Positions 51,802-57,582 of a stretch of DNA of 64,000 nt are shown in pieces. The DNA lies in assembly GCA_947632175.1 (NCBI GenBank), contig CANROC010000002.1, positions 1 through 64,000 of the forward strand, given 5' to 3'. Below the pieces are notes generated by a model. The model made no database searches, had not been told where the DNA came from, and saw only the letters and a program-made list of their open reading frames with translations. How positions within the stretch are numbered: the first letter of the stretch is position 1; each line of letters begins with the position of its first letter. The stretch comes from an uncultured Oscillospiraceae bacterium. GTDB taxonomy: Bacteria; Bacillota; Clostridia; Oscillospirales; Oscillospiraceae. A program made the translations under genes and the position numbers.

Positions 51802-51845
51802 AAAGCGCGTGACTTCCAGGAAACGGGAGGTCACGCGCTTTTTTA
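51802..51845. terminator. Bidirectional rho-independent terminator
   Basis: AAAGCGCGTGAC and GTCACGCGCTTT arms with T's after the second arm; the mirror strand also ends in TTTC. Shared by the convergent YitT and HxlR genes. Confidence 0.75.
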
Positions 51846-52175
51846 CGGTTCAAGGGTCGCCTTGTAGCTCTCGCCCCAGGCCTTCATGGCGTCCAGGATG
51901 GGGCGGAGGGTCTGCCCCAGCTCGGAAAGGGCGTATTCCACTCTTGGCGGGACCTCGGGGTAGACGGTGCGGGTGATGAGGCCGTCGGCCTCCATGGAGC
52001 GGAGGCTGTCGGTGAGCACCTTCTGGCTGACCCCCTCAAGACTGCGCTGGAGCTCGTTGAAGCGCCAGGGACGGTCCAGGAGATTGCGGATGATGAGGAG
52101 CTTCCACTTGTTGCCGATGAGCTGTACCGTAGTCGCCACGGGACACGCGGGCAGAAGCTCGGCCTTCGTTTTCAT
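51843..52175 (-). CDS. HxlR-family regulator facing the ACGX peptide locus
   Basis: 110 residues, the usual length. The winged-helix pattern is CPVATTVQLIGNKWKLLIIR, LLDRPWRFNELQRSLEGVSQ and KVLTDSLRSMEADGLITRTV, ending with PPRVEYALSELGQTLRPILD. An N-terminal Cys (LPACPVA) sits where redox- or thiol-sensing members carry one. It starts after GGGAGGCG with a promoter at 52214. The tandem GTGCGTAC repeats between its promoter and the ACGX promoter are likely binding sites for it (inference). Confidence 0.9.
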   Translation of the reverse strand: MKTKAELLPACPVATTVQLIGNKWKLLIIRNLLDRPWRFNELQRSLEGVSQKVLTDSLRSMEADGLITRTVYPEVPPRVEYALSELGQTLRPILDAMKAWGESYKATLEP

Positions 52176-52213
52176 AAAAACGCCTCCCGGATGAAAAATG
52201 GATGTTACATTCC

Positions 52214-52242
52214 ATTTTAATGTATGGCTTTTCTTCCGTCAA
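52214..52242 (-). promoter_or_regulatory. Sigma-A promoter of the HxlR gene
   Basis: TTGACG (52237-52242), 17 bp, TAAAAT (52214-52219) on the minus strand. Confidence 0.7.
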
Positions 52243-52250
52243 GTAGTTAC

Positions 52251-52283
52251 AAAAAGGTGCGTACCCCACAAAAAAGTGCGTAC
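52251..52283 (+). promoter_or_regulatory. Tandem AAAAA-G-GTGCGTAC repeats, probable HxlR operator
   Basis: Two copies of GTGCGTAC at 52257-52264 and 52276-52283, each preceded by a run of A's, 19 bp apart. The second ends directly at the -35 box of the ACGX promoter, and the first lies 14 bp from the -35 of the HxlR gene. Confidence 0.55.
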
Positions 52284-52312
52284 TTGCGCCTCCTTTCGGG
52301 CCGGTTTAGAAT
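52284..52312 (+). promoter_or_regulatory. Promoter of the ACGX peptide/radical SAM operon
   Basis: TTGCGC (52284-52289), 17 bp, TAGAAT (52307-52312), 45 bp before the peptide start. The weak -35 suggests regulation. Confidence 0.55.
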
Positions 52313-52357
52313 GGCAAATACAGGGGAAGCCCTGAATCCATCAAGGAGGCAAACAGT

Positions 52358-52540
52358 ATGGCGCTTTCCAACCTCTATTCCTGGTCCGAGGACGTCAAGC
52401 CCTGCGCCTGTGGGGCCGCCTGCGGCGCCGCGGACAAGCCCGAGGAAAAGCCCGCGGAGACTCCTGCCGCCTGCGGCGCCGCCGCCCCGGAGGAGAAGCC
52501 CGCCGCCTGCGGGACGGCCTGCGGAGCCGGGGACAAATGA
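52358..52540 (+). CDS. Predicted RiPP precursor, ACGX-repeat peptide
   Basis: 60 residues. A leader-like start (MALSNLYSWSEDVK) is followed by a core with six Cys (16, 18, 22, 39, 51, 55) and five Ala-Cys-Gly-x motifs (ACGA, ACGA, ACGA, ACGT, ACGA), separated by Lys/Pro/Glu spacers. This is the pattern of the ACGX-repeat peptides that occur next to a radical SAM/SPASM enzyme. The enzyme gene is 66 bp downstream and no other gene lies between. AAGGAGG lies 8 bp before the ATG. The modification is not known; thioether links from Cys sulfur to a nearby alpha carbon would be one option by analogy. Confidence 0.8.
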   Translation: MALSNLYSWSEDVKPCACGAACGAADKPEEKPAETPAACGAAAPEEKPAACGTACGAGDK

Positions 52541-52544
52541 AAAC

Positions 52545-52560
52545 GGCCCCTGCGGGGGCC
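52545..52560 (+). terminator. Short stem-loop between the peptide and its enzyme gene
   Basis: GGCCCC and GGGGCC arms around TGCG. In peptide loci, such a stem often lets the precursor be made in excess over the enzyme. Confidence 0.5.
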
Positions 52561-52606
52561 ACGGAAATTCATCGGTTTCGATTTACCATAGATTTGAGGC
52601 GATCTG

Positions 52607-53641
52607 ATGCAGTACTTTTCTTTTCAGTGGCACATCACCGACGAGTGCGACCAGCGGTGCAGGCACTGTTATATATTCTCCGGGGATAAGTGCCACGAGC
52701 TCAAAAGCATGACCTGGGCGCAGATGGAGGACACCTTCTGGAACTGCCTGGACTTCTGCGAGGTGTACGGGCGTCTCCCCTACTTTTATCTCACCGGCGG
52801 GGACCCTATCCTGCACCCGGATTTCTGGCGGCTGCTGGCTTTGTTCAAGGAACACAACGTTCCGTTTACCGTCATGGGCAACCCGTTTCACTTGAACGAC
52901 CGGGTGTGCCGGGAGATGAAATTCTTCGGCTGTGAGAAGTACCAGCTCTCCCTGGACGGCCTCCGGGAGACGCACGACTGGTTCCGCAAGCCCGGCTCCT
53001 TTGACTGCACGATTGAAAAGATTGGCTGTATCAACCGCTCCGGGATGCGAAGCGTGATTATGACGACGGTATCGAAAACAAACCGCATGGAGGTGCCGGG
53101 CATCATCGACGCGGTGGTGGCGGCGGGCGCGAACGTATTTGCCTTTTCCCGCTATGTCCCCAGCGGCGGCGACCTGGACGCCTCCATGACGCCGCAGGAG
53201 TACCGGGAGCTGCTGGCCATTTGCGATCAGAAATTCAAGGCGTATGAGGCGGAGGGCGTTAAGACCTATTTCAACAAAAAAGACCATCTCTGGACGCTCT
53301 ACGAGTATGAAACGGGAGCCTTCAGGATTCCCGCGGACGTCAAAGAGGGTATGATTTACGGCGGGTGCAACTGTGGCAACTGCCACATCACCATCCTGCC
53401 CACCGGCGACGTGTACGCCTGCCGGAGAGTGGCGGAGAGCAAAGTCGGCAATGTGTTCACCGACCGGCTGGCTGACGTGTGGGTGTGCGAGATGGAGGCA
53501 TACCGGGAGTATACAAAATTCGTCAAGTGCGCCAAGTGCGAGCTCCTCCCCTATTGCCGGGGCTGTCCCGCTGTAGCAAAGGGGTCGAACGGGGGCTTTT
53601 ATGAGGCCGACCCGCAATGCTGGAAGGAGGTGTGTGTCTGA
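52607..53641 (+). CDS. Radical SAM/SPASM peptide-modifying enzyme, ACGX system
   Basis: 344 residues. The radical SAM motif CDQRCRHC gives Cys14, Cys18 and Cys21, which bind the 4Fe-4S cluster that cleaves S-adenosylmethionine. A C-terminal SPASM region has seven or more Cys (GCNCGNCHI...YACRRV...CAKCELLPYCRGCP...CWKEVC), which would bind one or two further clusters. Gly-rich YLTGGDPILHPDFW is the GGE-like motif of the family. It should act on the ACGx core of the upstream peptide. GAGGCGAT is a weak ribosome site before ATG 52607. No exporter or protease for the product lies in the window. Confidence 0.85.
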   Translation: MQYFSFQWHITDECDQRCRHCYIFSGDKCHELKSMTWAQMEDTFWNCLDFCEVYGRLPYFYLTGGDPILHPDFWRLLALFKEHNVPFTVMGNPFHLNDRVCREMKFFGCEKYQLSLDGLRETHDWFRKPGSFDCTIEKIGCINRSGMRSVIMTTVSKTNRMEVPGIIDAVVAAGANVFAFSRYVPSGGDLDASMTPQEYRELLAICDQKFKAYEAEGVKTYFNKKDHLWTLYEYETGAFRIPADVKEGMIYGGCNCGNCHITILPTGDVYACRRVAESKVGNVFTDRLADVWVCEMEAYREYTKFVKCAKCELLPYCRGCPAVAKGSNGGFYEADPQCWKEVCV

Positions 53642-53644
53642 GCC

Positions 53645-53794
53645 TCATTCAGGCAAGTCTTCGTGCGGCTTGTCCGGCGGCAAAACGCGAATGGGCGGGT
53701 CCGGCTCGGCGATAACCATTTCCTCACATTCCCTCTGGGCCGCTATCGGGATGTTGACAGCTTTCTCGGAGGCGCGGAACAATTTTAAAACCAT
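53645..53794 (-). CDS. Small hypothetical protein, divergent from an XRE regulator
   Basis: 49 residues if it starts at ATG 53794. The sequence (MVLKLFRASEKAVNI, then AQRECEEMVI and PDPPIRVLPPDKP) reads like a real folded and charged small protein. Its promoter (TTGACA, 17 bp, TACAAT at 53832-53860) is very good, yet the ribosome site is unclear: AAGGAG touches the ATG and an AGGAGG lies 22 bp upstream. A start further upstream with a non-ATG codon is possible. It shares the regulated spacer with the XRE gene. The function is unknown. Confidence 0.5.
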   Translation of the reverse strand: MVLKLFRASEKAVNIPIAAQRECEEMVIAEPDPPIRVLPPDKPHEDLPE

Positions 53795-53831
53795 CTCCTT
53801 ATAATCCGGTATAAGCTCACCTCCTAAGCAA

Positions 53832-53860
53832 ATTGTAGGACATATTGTCCAATTTGTCAA
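53832..53860 (-). promoter_or_regulatory. Promoter with GGACA-TAT-TGTCC operator in its spacer
   Basis: TTGACA (53855-53860), 17 bp, TACAAT (53832-53837) on the minus strand. The dyad GGACATATTGTCC (53838-53850) lies directly against the -10, where repressors of the XRE type commonly bind. The XRE gene begins about 50 bp away. Confidence 0.65.
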
Positions 53861-53902
53861 GCTTTCCCGCTGTTCCGGTGTATAGTGGCATCGGTGATGA
53901 AG

Positions 53903-54115
53903 ATGCGTTTACGGATACGCGATTTGCGGGAGGACGCGGACCTGACACAGCGTCAGGTGGCGGACGAGCTCATGTGCGACCAGTCCCTGTACTCCAAATA
54001 TGAGCGCGGCGAACGACCGCTCCCCCTGGAGGCGGCGGTACGGCTGGCGCTCTTTTACAAGACGAGCCTGGACTATCTGGTCGGCCTCACCGACGACCCC
54101 GCGCCTCGCGGCTGA
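53903..54115 (+). CDS. XRE-family repressor-like protein
   Basis: 70 residues from ATG 53903. A complete Cro/CI helix-turn-helix: IRDLREDADLTQRQVADELM (about 4-23), then CDQSLYSKYERGERPLPLEA, then AVRLALFYKTSLDYLVGLTD at the end. It likely represses the divergent small gene, through the dyad at 53838-53850. Other starts (GTG 53885, ATG 53897) are possible; the ribosome site GGTGA is weak. A terminator follows. Confidence 0.85.
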   Translation: MRLRIRDLREDADLTQRQVADELMCDQSLYSKYERGERPLPLEAAVRLALFYKTSLDYLVGLTDDPAPRG

Positions 54116-54160: not shown

Positions 54161-54185
54161 ATCATTTTTCGTGGAGGTTTTTTTC

Positions 54186-54803
54186 ATGGACGCACAAACT
54201 TGTCTGAAAAAATTGGAATATGTGGGCGTGCTGGCCTTTGCCACGGTGGGCAGGGACGGCGCGCCGCAGATACGCAATATCTCCGCCATTCACTATGAGC
54301 CGGACAGGATGATCTTCTTCACCGCAAAGGGGAAAGCCTTCTGCGAGGAGCTTCTGCGTGATGGGCGCGTGCAAGTACTGGGGTACACCAAGTATAAAGA
54401 AATGATCCGCCTGTCCGCAAGGGCTGTCCCCGTCCCGGAGAGCGAACAGGAGAAGTGGATCGACACGATCTTCGCGGAACAGCCCTACCTCTCCAACGTC
54501 TATCCTGGCGACACGCGAAAGCTGGCAGGAATCGTTTTTGAAATCAGGGACGGGGAAATCGAGTATTTCAATCTCGGCGTCAATCCCATCTTCCGGGAGA
54601 GCTACACCATCGGTACTGGAAATATCACGCCAAAGGGGTATCGTATTTCCGATGCGTGTATCGGCTGCGGGAAGTGTTTGAAAAACTGTCCCCAGCGGTG
54701 CATCGAGCCGGGGAAGCCCTACCGTATTGCGCAAAACCACTGCTTGCACTGTGGCAACTGCCTTGCGGTCTGCCCGGTAAAGGCGATAGAAAAGCGGGGA
54801 TAA
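54186..54803 (+). CDS. PNPOx-like flavin-barrel protein with C-terminal 2[4Fe-4S] ferredoxin
   Basis: 205 residues from ATG 54186, which follows GTGGAGG. Residues about 1-135 are a pyridoxamine-phosphate-oxidase-like split barrel (YVGVLAFATVGRDGAPQIRN, FFTAKGKAFCEELLRDGRVQ), which should bind FMN. Residues about 155-200 carry two ferredoxin clusters, CIGCGKCLKNCP and CLHCGNCLAVCP. Joining the two suggests an electron carrier or a reductase for a small flavin substrate. Such fusions are common in anaerobes. It lies downstream of the ACGX locus but has no visible promoter of its own after the terminator at 54117. Confidence 0.88.
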   Translation: MDAQTCLKKLEYVGVLAFATVGRDGAPQIRNISAIHYEPDRMIFFTAKGKAFCEELLRDGRVQVLGYTKYKEMIRLSARAVPVPESEQEKWIDTIFAEQPYLSNVYPGDTRKLAGIVFEIRDGEIEYFNLGVNPIFRESYTIGTGNITPKGYRISDACIGCGKCLKNCPQRCIEPGKPYRIAQNHCLHCGNCLAVCPVKAIEKRG

Positions 54804-54812
54804 TGCAACTGC

Positions 54813-55913
54813 TTACTTTTGCGCCATCTTCGCAAATCGAGTCATATCCTCCGCAAACTCCCGTGGCTGTTCCAGGGCGGTGAAATGGCCGCCTCGCGGC
54901 ATGGTGGTGTATTGGACCACGGGATAGTGCTTTTCCACCCACTCCCTTGGCACCGGGAGAACATCGTGGGGAAAGACCGCGATGGCTGTCGGTACGGTGA
55001 TCGGCCCCAGGGGAGGCAATGTAAAGCTGTTCCCGTGGTAGGCGCGGATGGAGGTGTGCGCCGTGTTGGTCATCCAGTAGAGGGTCAGGCAGTCGCAGAG
55101 GTCATCCATCGTCAGCAGAGGCCAGTCGCTCCAGGCGTGGTATTTTTCCACGATCCACGCGGCCATCCCGGCCGGAGAATCACTGAGCATAAACGCCAGA
55201 GTTTGGGGCTTGGTGCTGTTGATGTTGATATAAGCCCCCTCCATCCGTGTCCACTCCTGGGCGCGGCGCTTATAGTCCAGCTCCGCCGGCGAAAGCGATT
55301 CATCCGCCGCCGCCACAATGTCCCCCGCAGAGCCTACATCTGTAAGATAGATTCCTCTCACCTCCTGTGGATAGCGGGCCGCCAGATAGCACGTCACGCC
55401 CCGACCCATATCGCCGCCTGACGCGATGTATTCCCTGTATCCAAGTACCTCGGTCATCAGCTTATGCCAGAGCTCCGCGACTTCGGCGTTATTGAGAAAG
55501 CCTTTCGGCGGCAGCGTTGAAAAGGCAAAGCCCGGCAGGGAGGGCACCACAAGGTCAAATTCGGAGAGAAACGGAAACGCCTTCGCGTAGCGAAGGAAGC
55601 TGTCCGGCCAGCCGTGCGTCAGCAGCAGCGGCAGCGAGCCCTTGCGGGAACCGGGGATATGAAAGAAATGGACCGTCACTCCATCCAGTTCACAGGTAAA
55701 CTGCGGATAATGGTTGAGTTCAGTCTCCTTCCGTTTCCAATCATAGCTGTCCCGCCAGTAGGACAAAAGGGATGAAAGGTACTCAACGTCCGTCCCCAGC
55801 GACCAGTGATCTCCCTCTATCGGCTCCGGCAGCCTTGCCGAGCTTATCCGGCGGCGCAACTCATCAAATTGTTCATCGGCAAAATGGATGTGAAAATCCT
55901 TTTTCACTTTCAA
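54813..55913 (-). CDS. Epoxide hydrolase family protein (EHN domain, alpha/beta hydrolase)
   Basis: 366 residues. The N-terminal EHN domain (FADEQFDELRRRISSARLPE) is followed by the alpha/beta-hydrolase core: LLTHGWPDSFLRYAK (oxyanion loop), IASGGDMGRGVTCYLAARYP (nucleophile Asp in GGDMG, near residue 169), and PRGGHFTALEQPREF with the final His. The pattern fits microsomal-type epoxide hydrolases that open epoxides to diols; the substrate is not known. It starts at ATG 55913 with a strong promoter at 55947. It ends 9 bp from the convergent ferredoxin gene. Confidence 0.92.
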   Translation of the reverse strand: MKVKKDFHIHFADEQFDELRRRISSARLPEPIEGDHWSLGTDVEYLSSLLSYWRDSYDWKRKETELNHYPQFTCELDGVTVHFFHIPGSRKGSLPLLLTHGWPDSFLRYAKAFPFLSEFDLVVPSLPGFAFSTLPPKGFLNNAEVAELWHKLMTEVLGYREYIASGGDMGRGVTCYLAARYPQEVRGIYLTDVGSAGDIVAAADESLSPAELDYKRRAQEWTRMEGAYININSTKPQTLAFMLSDSPAGMAAWIVEKYHAWSDWPLLTMDDLCDCLTLYWMTNTAHTSIRAYHGNSFTLPPLGPITVPTAIAVFPHDVLPVPREWVEKHYPVVQYTTMPRGGHFTALEQPREFAEDMTRFAKMAQK

Positions 55914-56003: not shown

Positions 56004-56765
56004 ATGACGCAAGAAGAAAGAAGAATATTTCTCATCAGGAAGTTGCTTTTCGAGCAGCACCGCTATCGGGATTTGCAGATTCCGTCCGATGAGGCAGAAC
56101 AGAGAACGCTGCTCCGCGCCCTGATGAACGTCCGCCCGCCGCGGCCGATAGAGGATGATTTTCTGACGGTGCAGGACGCGTATCTGCAAGAAGAAACCGC
56201 CCGAAAAGGCGTTACGGATCTGGCCGGCCTTACGCCTGTTGAGCCGGGTATCTATTTATGGCAGGGGGACATCACCACGCTGAAATGCGGAGCCATTGTC
56301 AACGCCGCCAACTCCGAGCTCACGGGGTGCTACGTGCCCTGCCACAGGTGTATCGACAACGCCATTCACACCTGGGCCGGAGTGCAGCTGCGGCTTGCCT
56401 GCGCCAAGCTTATGGAGGCGCAGGGGCACGAGGAGCCTGTCGGACAGGCCAAGCTCACGCCGGGGTTCAACCTACCCTGCGACTATGTCCTGCACACGGT
56501 GGGTCCCATCGTGTCGGGCCGCGTGACGGAGAGGGACCGGGAGGAACTGGCCTCCTGCTACCGCTCCTGTTTGGAGCTGGCGCGGCGGAACGGCATCGGG
56601 AGCGTGGCTTTCTGCTGTATCTCCACCGGGGAGTTTCATTTCCCGAATGACGAGGCCGCACGGATCGCCGTGGAGACGGTGCGGCGCTTTAGAGGCGAAA
56701 TCGAGGTGATCTTCAATGTGTTCAAGGATGACGATGACCGCATCTACCGGGGCTTACTGGGATAA
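56004..56765 (+). CDS. Zinc-type macrodomain ADP-ribosyl hydrolase
   Basis: 253 residues. After an N-terminal helical part (about 1-75) comes a macrodomain: GDITTLKCGAIVNAANSELT (ADP-ribose loop, NAAN), then CYVPCHRCIDNAIHTWAG with the Cys/His set of zinc-containing macrodomains, and later GQAKLTPGFNLPCDYVLHTV and CCISTGEFHFPNDEAARIAV (diphosphate loop). Such enzymes remove ADP-ribose from proteins. The gene overlaps the SirTM-type sirtuin that follows, so the two form a writer/eraser pair. The chosen start is ATG 56004 after AGAAAGG. Confidence 0.92.
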   Translation: MTQEERRIFLIRKLLFEQHRYRDLQIPSDEAEQRTLLRALMNVRPPRPIEDDFLTVQDAYLQEETARKGVTDLAGLTPVEPGIYLWQGDITTLKCGAIVNAANSELTGCYVPCHRCIDNAIHTWAGVQLRLACAKLMEAQGHEEPVGQAKLTPGFNLPCDYVLHTVGPIVSGRVTERDREELASCYRSCLELARRNGIGSVAFCCISTGEFHFPNDEAARIAVETVRRFRGEIEVIFNVFKDDDDRIYRGLLG

Positions 56766-57582
56766 CCTCCGGCGGCTCCGGGAGGCGTTGGACGCGGCGG
56801 ACGCCGTTGTCATCGGCGCGGGGGCGGGGCTGTCCACGGCGGCGGGGTTCACCTACGCTGGGGAGCGGTTCCGGCGGAATTTTGCCGACTTTGCCGCCAA
56901 ATATGGCTTTTCGGACATGTATTCCGGCGGGTTCTACCCCTACCCCACGCCGGAGGAATTTTGGGCCTATTGGAGCCGGTATATTTATGTAAACCGATAT
57001 CTGGACCCGCCAAAGCCGGTGTATGAAAAGCTCCTGGCGCTGGTGCGGGAGAAGGATTATTTTGTGCTCACCACCAACGTGGACCACTGCTTTCAAAAGG
57101 CGGGGTTCGACAAGGAGCGGCTTTTCTACACTCAGGGGGACTACGGCCTCTTTCAGTGCTCCGGGCCCTGCCGGCAGGAGACCTTTGACAACGAGGACGC
57201 GGTCCGGCGGATGGTGGAAGCGCAACGGGACATGCGCGTCCCCTCCGGGCTTCTTCCCCGCTGTCCCCATTGCGGAAGGCCGATGACCATGAATCTGCGC
57301 TCCGACGACAAATTCGTGGAGGACGCGGGCTGGCATTGGGCGGCGGCGCGGTATGAGGATTTCCTGCGCACGCGGGGCGGCGGTCGGGTCCTCTATTGGG
57401 AGCTGGGCGTCGGCTACAACACCCCGGGGATCGTCAAATTTCCTTTCTGGCGCATGACGGCGGCCAATCCCAAGGCCGTCTACGCCTGCGTCAACGCCGG
57501 CGAGGCCGTTTGCCCCACACAAATCGCGAGACAAGCGATTTTGCTCAAAAACGACATCGGCGGCGTGCTGGAGGAGCTGTGA
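56716..57582 (+). CDS. SirTM-type sirtuin (protein ADP-ribosyltransferase)
   Basis: 288 residues. NAD-binding motifs: VVIGAGAGLSTAAGFTYAGE (GAGxS), FVLTTNVDHCFQKAGFDKER (TTNVDH; TQGD follows in FYTQGDYGLF) and GVGYNTPGIVKFPFWRMTAA. A zinc-binding cysteine set is CSGPC and CPHC. The macro-domain partner upstream and the sequence place it with the SirTM class, which ADP-ribosylates proteins, in other bacteria a lipoylated GcvH-like carrier. Here no gcvH-L or lplA2 gene is in the window. The start may be ATG 56716, 56728 or 56734; GAGGTGAT is 5 bp before the first. It overlaps the macrodomain gene by 50 bp. Confidence 0.9.
   Translation: MCSRMTMTASTGAYWDNLRRLREALDAADAVVIGAGAGLSTAAGFTYAGERFRRNFADFAAKYGFSDMYSGGFYPYPTPEEFWAYWSRYIYVNRYLDPPKPVYEKLLALVREKDYFVLTTNVDHCFQKAGFDKERLFYTQGDYGLFQCSGPCRQETFDNEDAVRRMVEAQRDMRVPSGLLPRCPHCGRPMTMNLRSDDKFVEDAGWHWAAARYEDFLRTRGGGRVLYWELGVGYNTPGIVKFPFWRMTAANPKAVYACVNAGEAVCPTQIARQAILLKNDIGGVLEEL

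Follow-up and report, generated by a model that had tools for sequence, protein, structure and literature searches.

What purpose is served by a small peptide built of Ala-Cys-Gly repeats whose gene lies directly in front of that of a radical S-adenosylmethionine (SAM)/SPASM enzyme? This question is raised by a locus on contig CANROC010000002.1 of an uncultured Oscillospiraceae bacterium, of which positions 1 to 64,000 were analysed (the whole of this 64,000-nucleotide stretch being termed the window). An earlier note, made from the sequence alone, had predicted at 52176-53641 a locus for a ribosomally synthesised and post-translationally modified peptide (RiPP), with an ACGX-repeat peptide, its enzyme and an HxlR regulator. 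As a whole that note is partly supported: the observation itself was confirmed and the locus stands, but its end does not, as the conserved gene block was found to continue to 57582. Missing from it were the downstream genes for oxidoreductases, a Zn-macrodomain and a SirTM, the resemblance between the enzyme and SbtM, and a reading of the weak -35 box in which activation fits at least as well as repression. Comparison with 80 related loci (80 of the 583 confirmed, from a scan of named genomes) revealed, at the level of sequence, a conserved unit made up of hxlR, a two-box operator, the ACGX peptide, the enzyme, one or two oxidoreductases of the flavin or NAD(P)H type and, often, a Zn-macrodomain/SirTM pair. 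Our leading reading of this unit, held tentatively, is that this locus heads a thiol/electrophile stress operon under HxlR control, whose product may be a cytosolic, Cys-Gly-modified multi-thiol carrier or scavenger standing in the place of lipoyl-GcvH-L. The features of the unit in the window are as follows.

51843-52175, minus strand: HxlR-family regulator of 110 amino acids with a single Cys, C11 (Pfam HxlR, 112 bits)
52214-52242, minus strand: promoter-like site of hxlR, TTGACG-17-TAAAAT (consensus scan), its TTGAC abutting box 1
52246-52283, plus strand: predicted two-box operator between the divergent promoters, with 19-bp boxes at 52246-52264 and 52265-52283 (from alignment)
52284-52312, plus strand: promoter-like site of the ACGX operon, TTGCGC-17-TAGAAT (read from the sequence, with the same layout in aligned relatives)
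52358-52540, plus strand: ACGX-repeat precursor peptide of 60 amino acids (TIGR04341, 55 bits with a cut-off of 28, positions 1-65 of 65)
52545-52560, plus strand: hairpin between the peptide and enzyme genes (folding z-score of -1.16 versus shuffles)
52607-53641, plus strand: radical SAM/SPASM maturase of 344 amino acids without an N-terminal extension (TIGR04340, 579.1 bits with a cut-off of 400; Pfam Radical_SAM and SPASM)
54171-54803, plus strand: PPOX-type flavoprotein fused to a 2[4Fe-4S] ferredoxin domain (Pfam PNPOx_N and Fer4 models)
56004-56765, plus strand: Zn-macrodomain, a protein-ADP-ribose hydrolase (NF003163, 346 bits with a cut-off of 272)
56716-57582, plus strand: SirTM-type sirtuin, overlapping the macrodomain gene (assigned by macrodomain linkage and the motif YTQGDYG)

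The ACGX identity proposed in the earlier note was borne out by profile search, with peptide and enzyme both scoring above the curated cut-offs (TIGR04341, 55 bits; TIGR04340, 579 bits). With the peptide directly before the enzyme, the pair shows no essential difference from the ACGX system that these models define. No paper on the system was found among the matches listed in one paper library searched by name, by the two accessions or by phrases, and the family is named but undescribed in that library; what is new here is its operon context and regulator, the family itself having already been named. The note had also expected a homologous peptide in front of related enzymes, with a frame that does not change freely. 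On locus comparison this expectation held: a Cys-Gly (CG)-repeat peptide was found upstream of the enzyme in 74 of the 80 loci, so the pairing is not a matter of chance. Five of the six loci without one have at most 316 bp of upstream sequence, while locus L123 has 3346 bp and no such peptide. This last locus lies on a Candidatus Faecousia contig (the organism group of L008) and carries the enzyme and a nitroreductase, with neither a CG-repeat peptide nor an HxlR gene within 3.3 kb upstream.

The six Cys and five Ala-Cys-Gly-x motifs claimed for the window peptide were all found. Across the 73 distinct peptides compared, the window's included, Gly follows 469 of the 474 Cys and the full Ala-Cys-Gly is present at 461; the sixth Cys of the window peptide, C16, lies outside the motifs and is one of the five without a following Gly. 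The residue at position +4 from the Cys is Asp or Glu in 285 cases, Cys in 169, and another residue or past the end of the chain in 20; in the window peptide Asp is found there for C22 and C55 only (2 of 6 Cys). A peptide may hold from 2 to 15 Cys, and even where the enzyme is at least 88% identical to that of the window the peptides range from 40 to 99 residues with 3 to 10 Cys-Gly. Such variation in repeat number is expected of a carrier rather than of a structured antibiotic. There is a short, leader-like conserved start, MALSNLxxW (69 of the 73 begin with MAL or MGL). Five divergent precursors (L016, L059, L060, L061 and L065) retain ACGxx[DE], and all of these except that of L059 lack the leader. 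Because Ala, Gly, Lys, Glu, Asp and Pro are abundant in the chain, it is probably unfolded.

The stem-loop that the earlier note had placed after the peptide gene was located, at 52545-52560. By itself the window hairpin is no stronger than shuffled sequence, while 59 of the 75 spacers between peptide and enzyme genes (20-330 nt long, folded over their leading 110 nt) gave z-scores below -2. The hairpin is probably a leaky terminator or an mRNA stabiliser.

As for the enzyme, the CxxxCxxC motif (C14, C18 and C21) and the Cys-rich SPASM tail described in the note are present. The three radical SAM cysteines and C254, C272, C308, C311, C317, C320 and C338 of the SPASM region are invariant in 18 relatives. 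The second-best NCBIfam model was that of SbtM (TIGR04082) in all nine members scanned singly. Its lead over the next model is clear in the seven members above the ACGX cut-off (e.g. 151.5 versus 102 bits for the window enzyme, which aligns with SbtM profile positions 198-515 of 516). In two agr-linked enzymes the lead is slight (183.3 versus 176.5 and 179.6 versus 179.4), SbtM scoring about the same as heme b synthase models. SbtM converts Cys to thiooxazole with the loss of four hydrogens, according to PMC11002830. Cys modification and the rank of the model are thus shared with SbtM, whereas the score of the window enzyme lies far under the SbtM cut-off, the N-terminal 197 model positions are absent, the precursor is a repeated one and the hosts belong to another group. 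A scan with TIGR04082 of 299 genomes of the phylum gave none above the cut-off, and its sole match at E 1e-50 was an ACGX-type enzyme (G832). An AlphaFold2 model of the window enzyme (pLDDT, the predicted local distance difference test, 88.8) has SuiB, SkfB and anSMEcpe as its closest solved folds. As these would fit any SPASM enzyme, the predicted structure confirms the SPASM fold only and does not separate thiooxazole from thioether chemistry.

The enzymes of L062-L064 were considered as a bridge to SbtM and rejected, as their neighbours are agrB-like genes and no CG-repeat peptide was seen there. Those of L063 and L064 are radical SAM/SPASM enzymes 34-35% identical to that of the window, and all three loci have agrB-like and sensor-kinase-like neighbours (named by eye), which may represent a radical SAM-modified agr signal peptide system.

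Genes downstream of the enzyme were counted on the same strand by clustering of neighbours and by translated search with a 50% coverage rule, the denominators including only loci with enough flanking sequence. Enzymes were further grouped at 85% identity into 24 clusters, a cluster being counted if any of its members has the gene. A nitroreductase was found in 41 of 75 loci, a quinone-reductase-like dehydrogenase in 27/73, the PPOX-ferredoxin in 40/58 (15 of 21 clusters), the macrodomain in 32/51 (14 of 19 clusters) and the sirtuin in 33/48 (15 of 19 clusters), with macrodomain and sirtuin occurring together in 31/48. The first gene within approximately 320 bp after the enzyme encodes an oxidoreductase in 68 of 73 loci, the window being among the five where it does not. 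Each of the 48 loci with 4.7 kb of downstream sequence has at least one of these five genes within 6 kb; in the upstream control (1.5-7 kb), each of the five was found in 0 of 44.

Two insertions were identified in the block of the window. Where relatives often have the nitroreductase, 53645-54115 holds a 71-amino-acid frame and a divergent HTH_3 gene, and at 54813-55913 the block is interrupted by an epoxide-hydrolase-like gene on the opposite strand. A candidate nitroreductase remnant at 53551-53631 was rejected, the weak match being due to an over-long query that overlapped the last part of the radical SAM gene.

The last two genes of the block carry the signature residues described for Zn-macrodomains and SirTMs in PMC11490716. 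The macrodomain has Cx4HxC (C109, H114 and C116), Dx3H (D118 and H122) and NAAN (100-103), and the sirtuin has Gln140 (YTQGDYG) where other sirtuins have the catalytic His. At least 95% of the 32 sirtuins aligned share this Gln (the alignments were length-filtered, to 32 of 39 sirtuins and 25 of 33 macrodomains). With Pfam SIR2 no match to the window sirtuin was obtained at 1e-4, and that of the relative L141 reached 23.5 bits with a threshold of 24.

The link was also found at the level of whole genomes. A Zn-macrodomain is encoded by 71 of 391 genomes of the class, namely by 16 of the 16 with an ACGX enzyme and by 55 of the 375 without (Fisher 3e-13, ancestry ignored), and by genus in 9/9 versus 38/213 (p 4e-7, ancestry ignored). 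In 13 of the 16 ACGX genomes it lies within 4 kb. Within the genus of the window, the PPOX-ferredoxin is present in 11 of 14 genomes with the ACGX peptide versus 3 of 20 without (p 3e-4). The three exceptions are G217, with its enzyme at the contig start, G220, which ends at the contig end, and G213, whose match is a 40% paralogue. Some genomes (G239, G332 and G559) carry two Zn-macrodomain genes; in G332 a single one of the two lies at the ACGX locus, and in G559 neither does.

Upstream, an HxlR gene was found in divergent orientation in 65 of 68 loci and in 22 of the 24 enzyme clusters; five loci lack it or are odd, among them L123, L141 and L147. The Cys near the N-terminus to which the earlier note had drawn attention, C11, is the only one in the protein and is invariant in 54 of 54 aligned sequences. 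The regulator thus combines the HxlR fold with the conserved N-terminal Cys by which HxlR/YodB-type thiol sensors are recognised. Its nearest models are those of the redox-sensing RrpB and RrpA, under their cut-offs (RrpB NF047364, 121.6 versus 175 bits).

The two GTGCGTAC repeats reported between the promoters were confirmed at 52257-52264 and 52276-52283, with a period of 19, the second touching the -35 box. In the relatives the predicted operator reads GTTACAAAAAGGTnnnTA followed by AtAAAAAaGTGCGTACTTG, and it is aligned in the 49 of 53 HxlR-peptide intergenic regions that the alignment shows. The box is also kept in place: the box-2 pattern lies just ahead of the peptide in 70 of 73 loci, whereas the remainder of these loci, 1.64 million strand-bases, holds only 5 copies. 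In its own genome box 1 is unique at up to 3 mismatches; no wider regulon was found there with box 1 at that stringency, other variants not being searched.

The -35 box of the ACGX promoter (TTGCGC, 52284-52289) directly follows box 2 and is weak (3 of 6 positions); it is separated by 17 nt from TAGAAT at 52307-52312. As the scan required 4 of 6 per hexamer, this promoter fell below the threshold and was not listed. Because the -35 box is weak, its position beside the putative operator suggests activation at least as well as repression. HxlR of Bacillus provides a precedent for an activator.

To the family membership, operon, operator and signature residues given by the data, the stress-operon reading adds a chemistry, a thiol role and ADP-ribosylation. 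HxlR would sense electrophile or disulfide stress through Cys11 and switch the promoter whose weak -35 box abuts the operator. The hairpin after the peptide gene would allow far more peptide than enzyme to be made. The enzyme would act on the peptide at its Cys-Gly sites, with 5-thiooxazole, as made by SbtM, the most likely outcome; this chemistry is favoured because 469 of the 474 Cys are followed by Gly and SbtM is the second-best family throughout. Neither cut nor exported, the product would remain intracellular, its acidic thiols strung along a flexible chain like beads on a string. This carrier would take up electrophiles, oxidants or soft metals, and the oxidoreductases of the operon would recharge it.

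Thiooxazole peptides made by other enzymes arise in stress responses and bind copper (PMC12668002). Extended SirTM operons comprise a lipoylated GcvH-L, its ligase, a SirTM, a Zn-macrodomain and two oxidoreductases, are part of an oxidative stress response and require the lipoyl group for ADP-ribosylation, as described in PMC4518038. The operons of Staphylococcaceae and Lactobacillales share with the present unit the SirTM, the Zn-macrodomain, the oxidoreductases and a thiol carrier with its modifying enzyme. They differ in that here the ACGX peptide would occupy the place held by lipoylated GcvH-L in the SirTM operons of Staphylococcus and Streptococcus, and the radical SAM enzyme that of LplA2, under an HxlR operator. 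Neither GcvH-L nor LplA2 was seen among the gene clusters common to at least five loci, as judged by eye and with no profile search aimed at them. No paper combining SirTM and radical SAM was found in the literature searched.

In GcvH-L the residue that receives ADP-ribose is Asp27, close to the lipoyl group. In the stress-operon reading, SirTM and the Zn-macrodomain would switch the carrier by ADP-ribosylation. The fuller version of this idea, in which the product is an enzyme-activated ribosomal thiol carrier, reversibly ADP-ribosylated by the SirTM and Zn-macrodomain of its own operon, perhaps on the Asp or Glu at +4, and a switchable stand-in for lipoyl-GcvH-L, is speculative and rather improbable; if true, ADP-ribosylation signalling would have its first RiPP-like target. 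The targets of SirTM/Zn-macrodomain systems other than those with GcvH-L are stated as unknown in PMC11490716, and the stress-operon reading, if true, would supply candidate substrates for them. It would likewise give the ACGX system a job and mean that peptide modification by radical SAM enzymes serves not only exported products but also an intracellular thiol pool in strict gut anaerobes. The operon context in any case suggests a testable new role for such Cys-Gly repeat peptides.

Several findings weigh against the stress-operon reading. The SbtM match lies below its cut-off (151.5 versus 350 bits) and the first 197 positions of the model are absent from the ACGX enzyme. The macrodomain and sirtuin are missing from the first 6 kb in 15 of 48 loci, and the nitroreductase has been lost from the window, where the block is also broken by two insertions. 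The genome-level test for the Zn-macrodomain ignores ancestry; G524 and G559 carry the ACGX pair without an adjoining macrodomain, and the 99% complete G229 encodes the peptide but gave no match for a sirtuin. In the genus of the window the sirtuin is found in 11 of 14 genomes with ACGX versus 9 of 20 without, which is not significant (p 0.08). Because the sirtuin does not significantly follow ACGX there, the link between ACGX and the ADP-ribosylation genes is strong and not obligate. Finally, the Asp or Glu at +4 of most terminal Cys would fit a thioether-forming enzyme equally well.

This last point leads to the main chemical rival, a ranthipeptide in which Cys are joined to Asp or Glu at +4 by thioethers in the manner of PapB (Cys-X3-Asp), so that small rings would follow one another along a chain devoid of free thiols. 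PapB works on Cys-X3-Asp/Glu and tolerates spacings of 0-6, according to PMC9413430, and here the acid is at +4 for 285 of the 474 Cys and is kept in the ACGxx[DE] of the divergent precursors, even where the leader is lost (in all but L059). The spacing, present in many repeats, is shared with PapA/PapB (freyrasin). The systems differ in that the window enzyme scores much lower with the PapB model (NF047865, 57.1 bits with a cut-off of 340, versus 151.5 for SbtM) and in the near-invariant Gly after Cys, which PapB does not need. Moreover, +4 is Cys rather than an acid for 169 Cys, and in the window only C22 and C55 have Asp there. Thioether formation is viewed as doubtful. A soft-metal buffer, chelating copper or similar metals as the MNIO-made captophorins and bufferins do, with the ADP-ribosylation genes as mere neighbours in the regulon, is close to the stress-operon reading and differs in purpose. 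The design is the same, stress-made Cys-Gly repeats in a charged, flexible chain with no protease, and thiooxazole peptides bind copper (PMC12668002; PMC12538549). Captophorins and bufferins, in contrast, come from other bacteria, where an iron enzyme makes them together with a partner protein, whereas here a radical SAM enzyme is found in anaerobes. No copper pump, chaperone or sensor was seen by eye among the clusters common to at least five loci, a copper-specific role not being preferred for this reason, and the regulator is an HxlR rather than a metal sensor, with redox enzymes as its co-genes. A buffer of this kind is a possibility to which we give limited weight.

The remaining alternatives concern the fate of the peptide and the meaning of the block. 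A secreted natural product, trimmed and exported through distant genes to act as an antimicrobial or signal, would agree with the leader-like start and with the products that radical SAM maturases often make. As the earlier note had stated, no exporter or protease gene was seen among the shared gene clusters close to the enzyme (judged by eye, the main ones also by Pfam). This absence, the wide differences in repeat number among close relatives, the stress regulator and the redox co-genes make secretion very unlikely. It may instead be that the ACGX, oxidoreductase and SirTM genes have different jobs and lie together only through a common HxlR promoter or integration hotspot. Neither the order nor the composition of the block is constant, and the Zn-macrodomain does not need the peptide, being present in 55 of the 375 class genomes without ACGX. 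Against this stand its presence in every one of the 16 with ACGX and the retention of the block across 24 enzyme clusters and six families, and a passive association of this kind is considered unlikely.

In distribution, the 80 loci come almost entirely from gut and rumen anaerobes, the closest to the window being from rabbit gut assemblies; cultured carriers include Ruminococcus bromii YE282 (L144) and Butyrivibrio INlla14 (L107). Of 200 genomes of the window's family, 15 have an ACGX enzyme scoring above the cut-off, as do 16 of 391 in its class, spread over six families; the peptide was detected in 14 of 34 genomes of its genus and in 8 of 398 of its phylum (E 1e-6). The same locus was also identified on four contigs titled Succinivibrio, Schwartzia, Sphaerochaetaceae and Flexilinea (L109, L138, L143 and L154, respectively), which may reflect either transfer between phyla or misbinned contigs.

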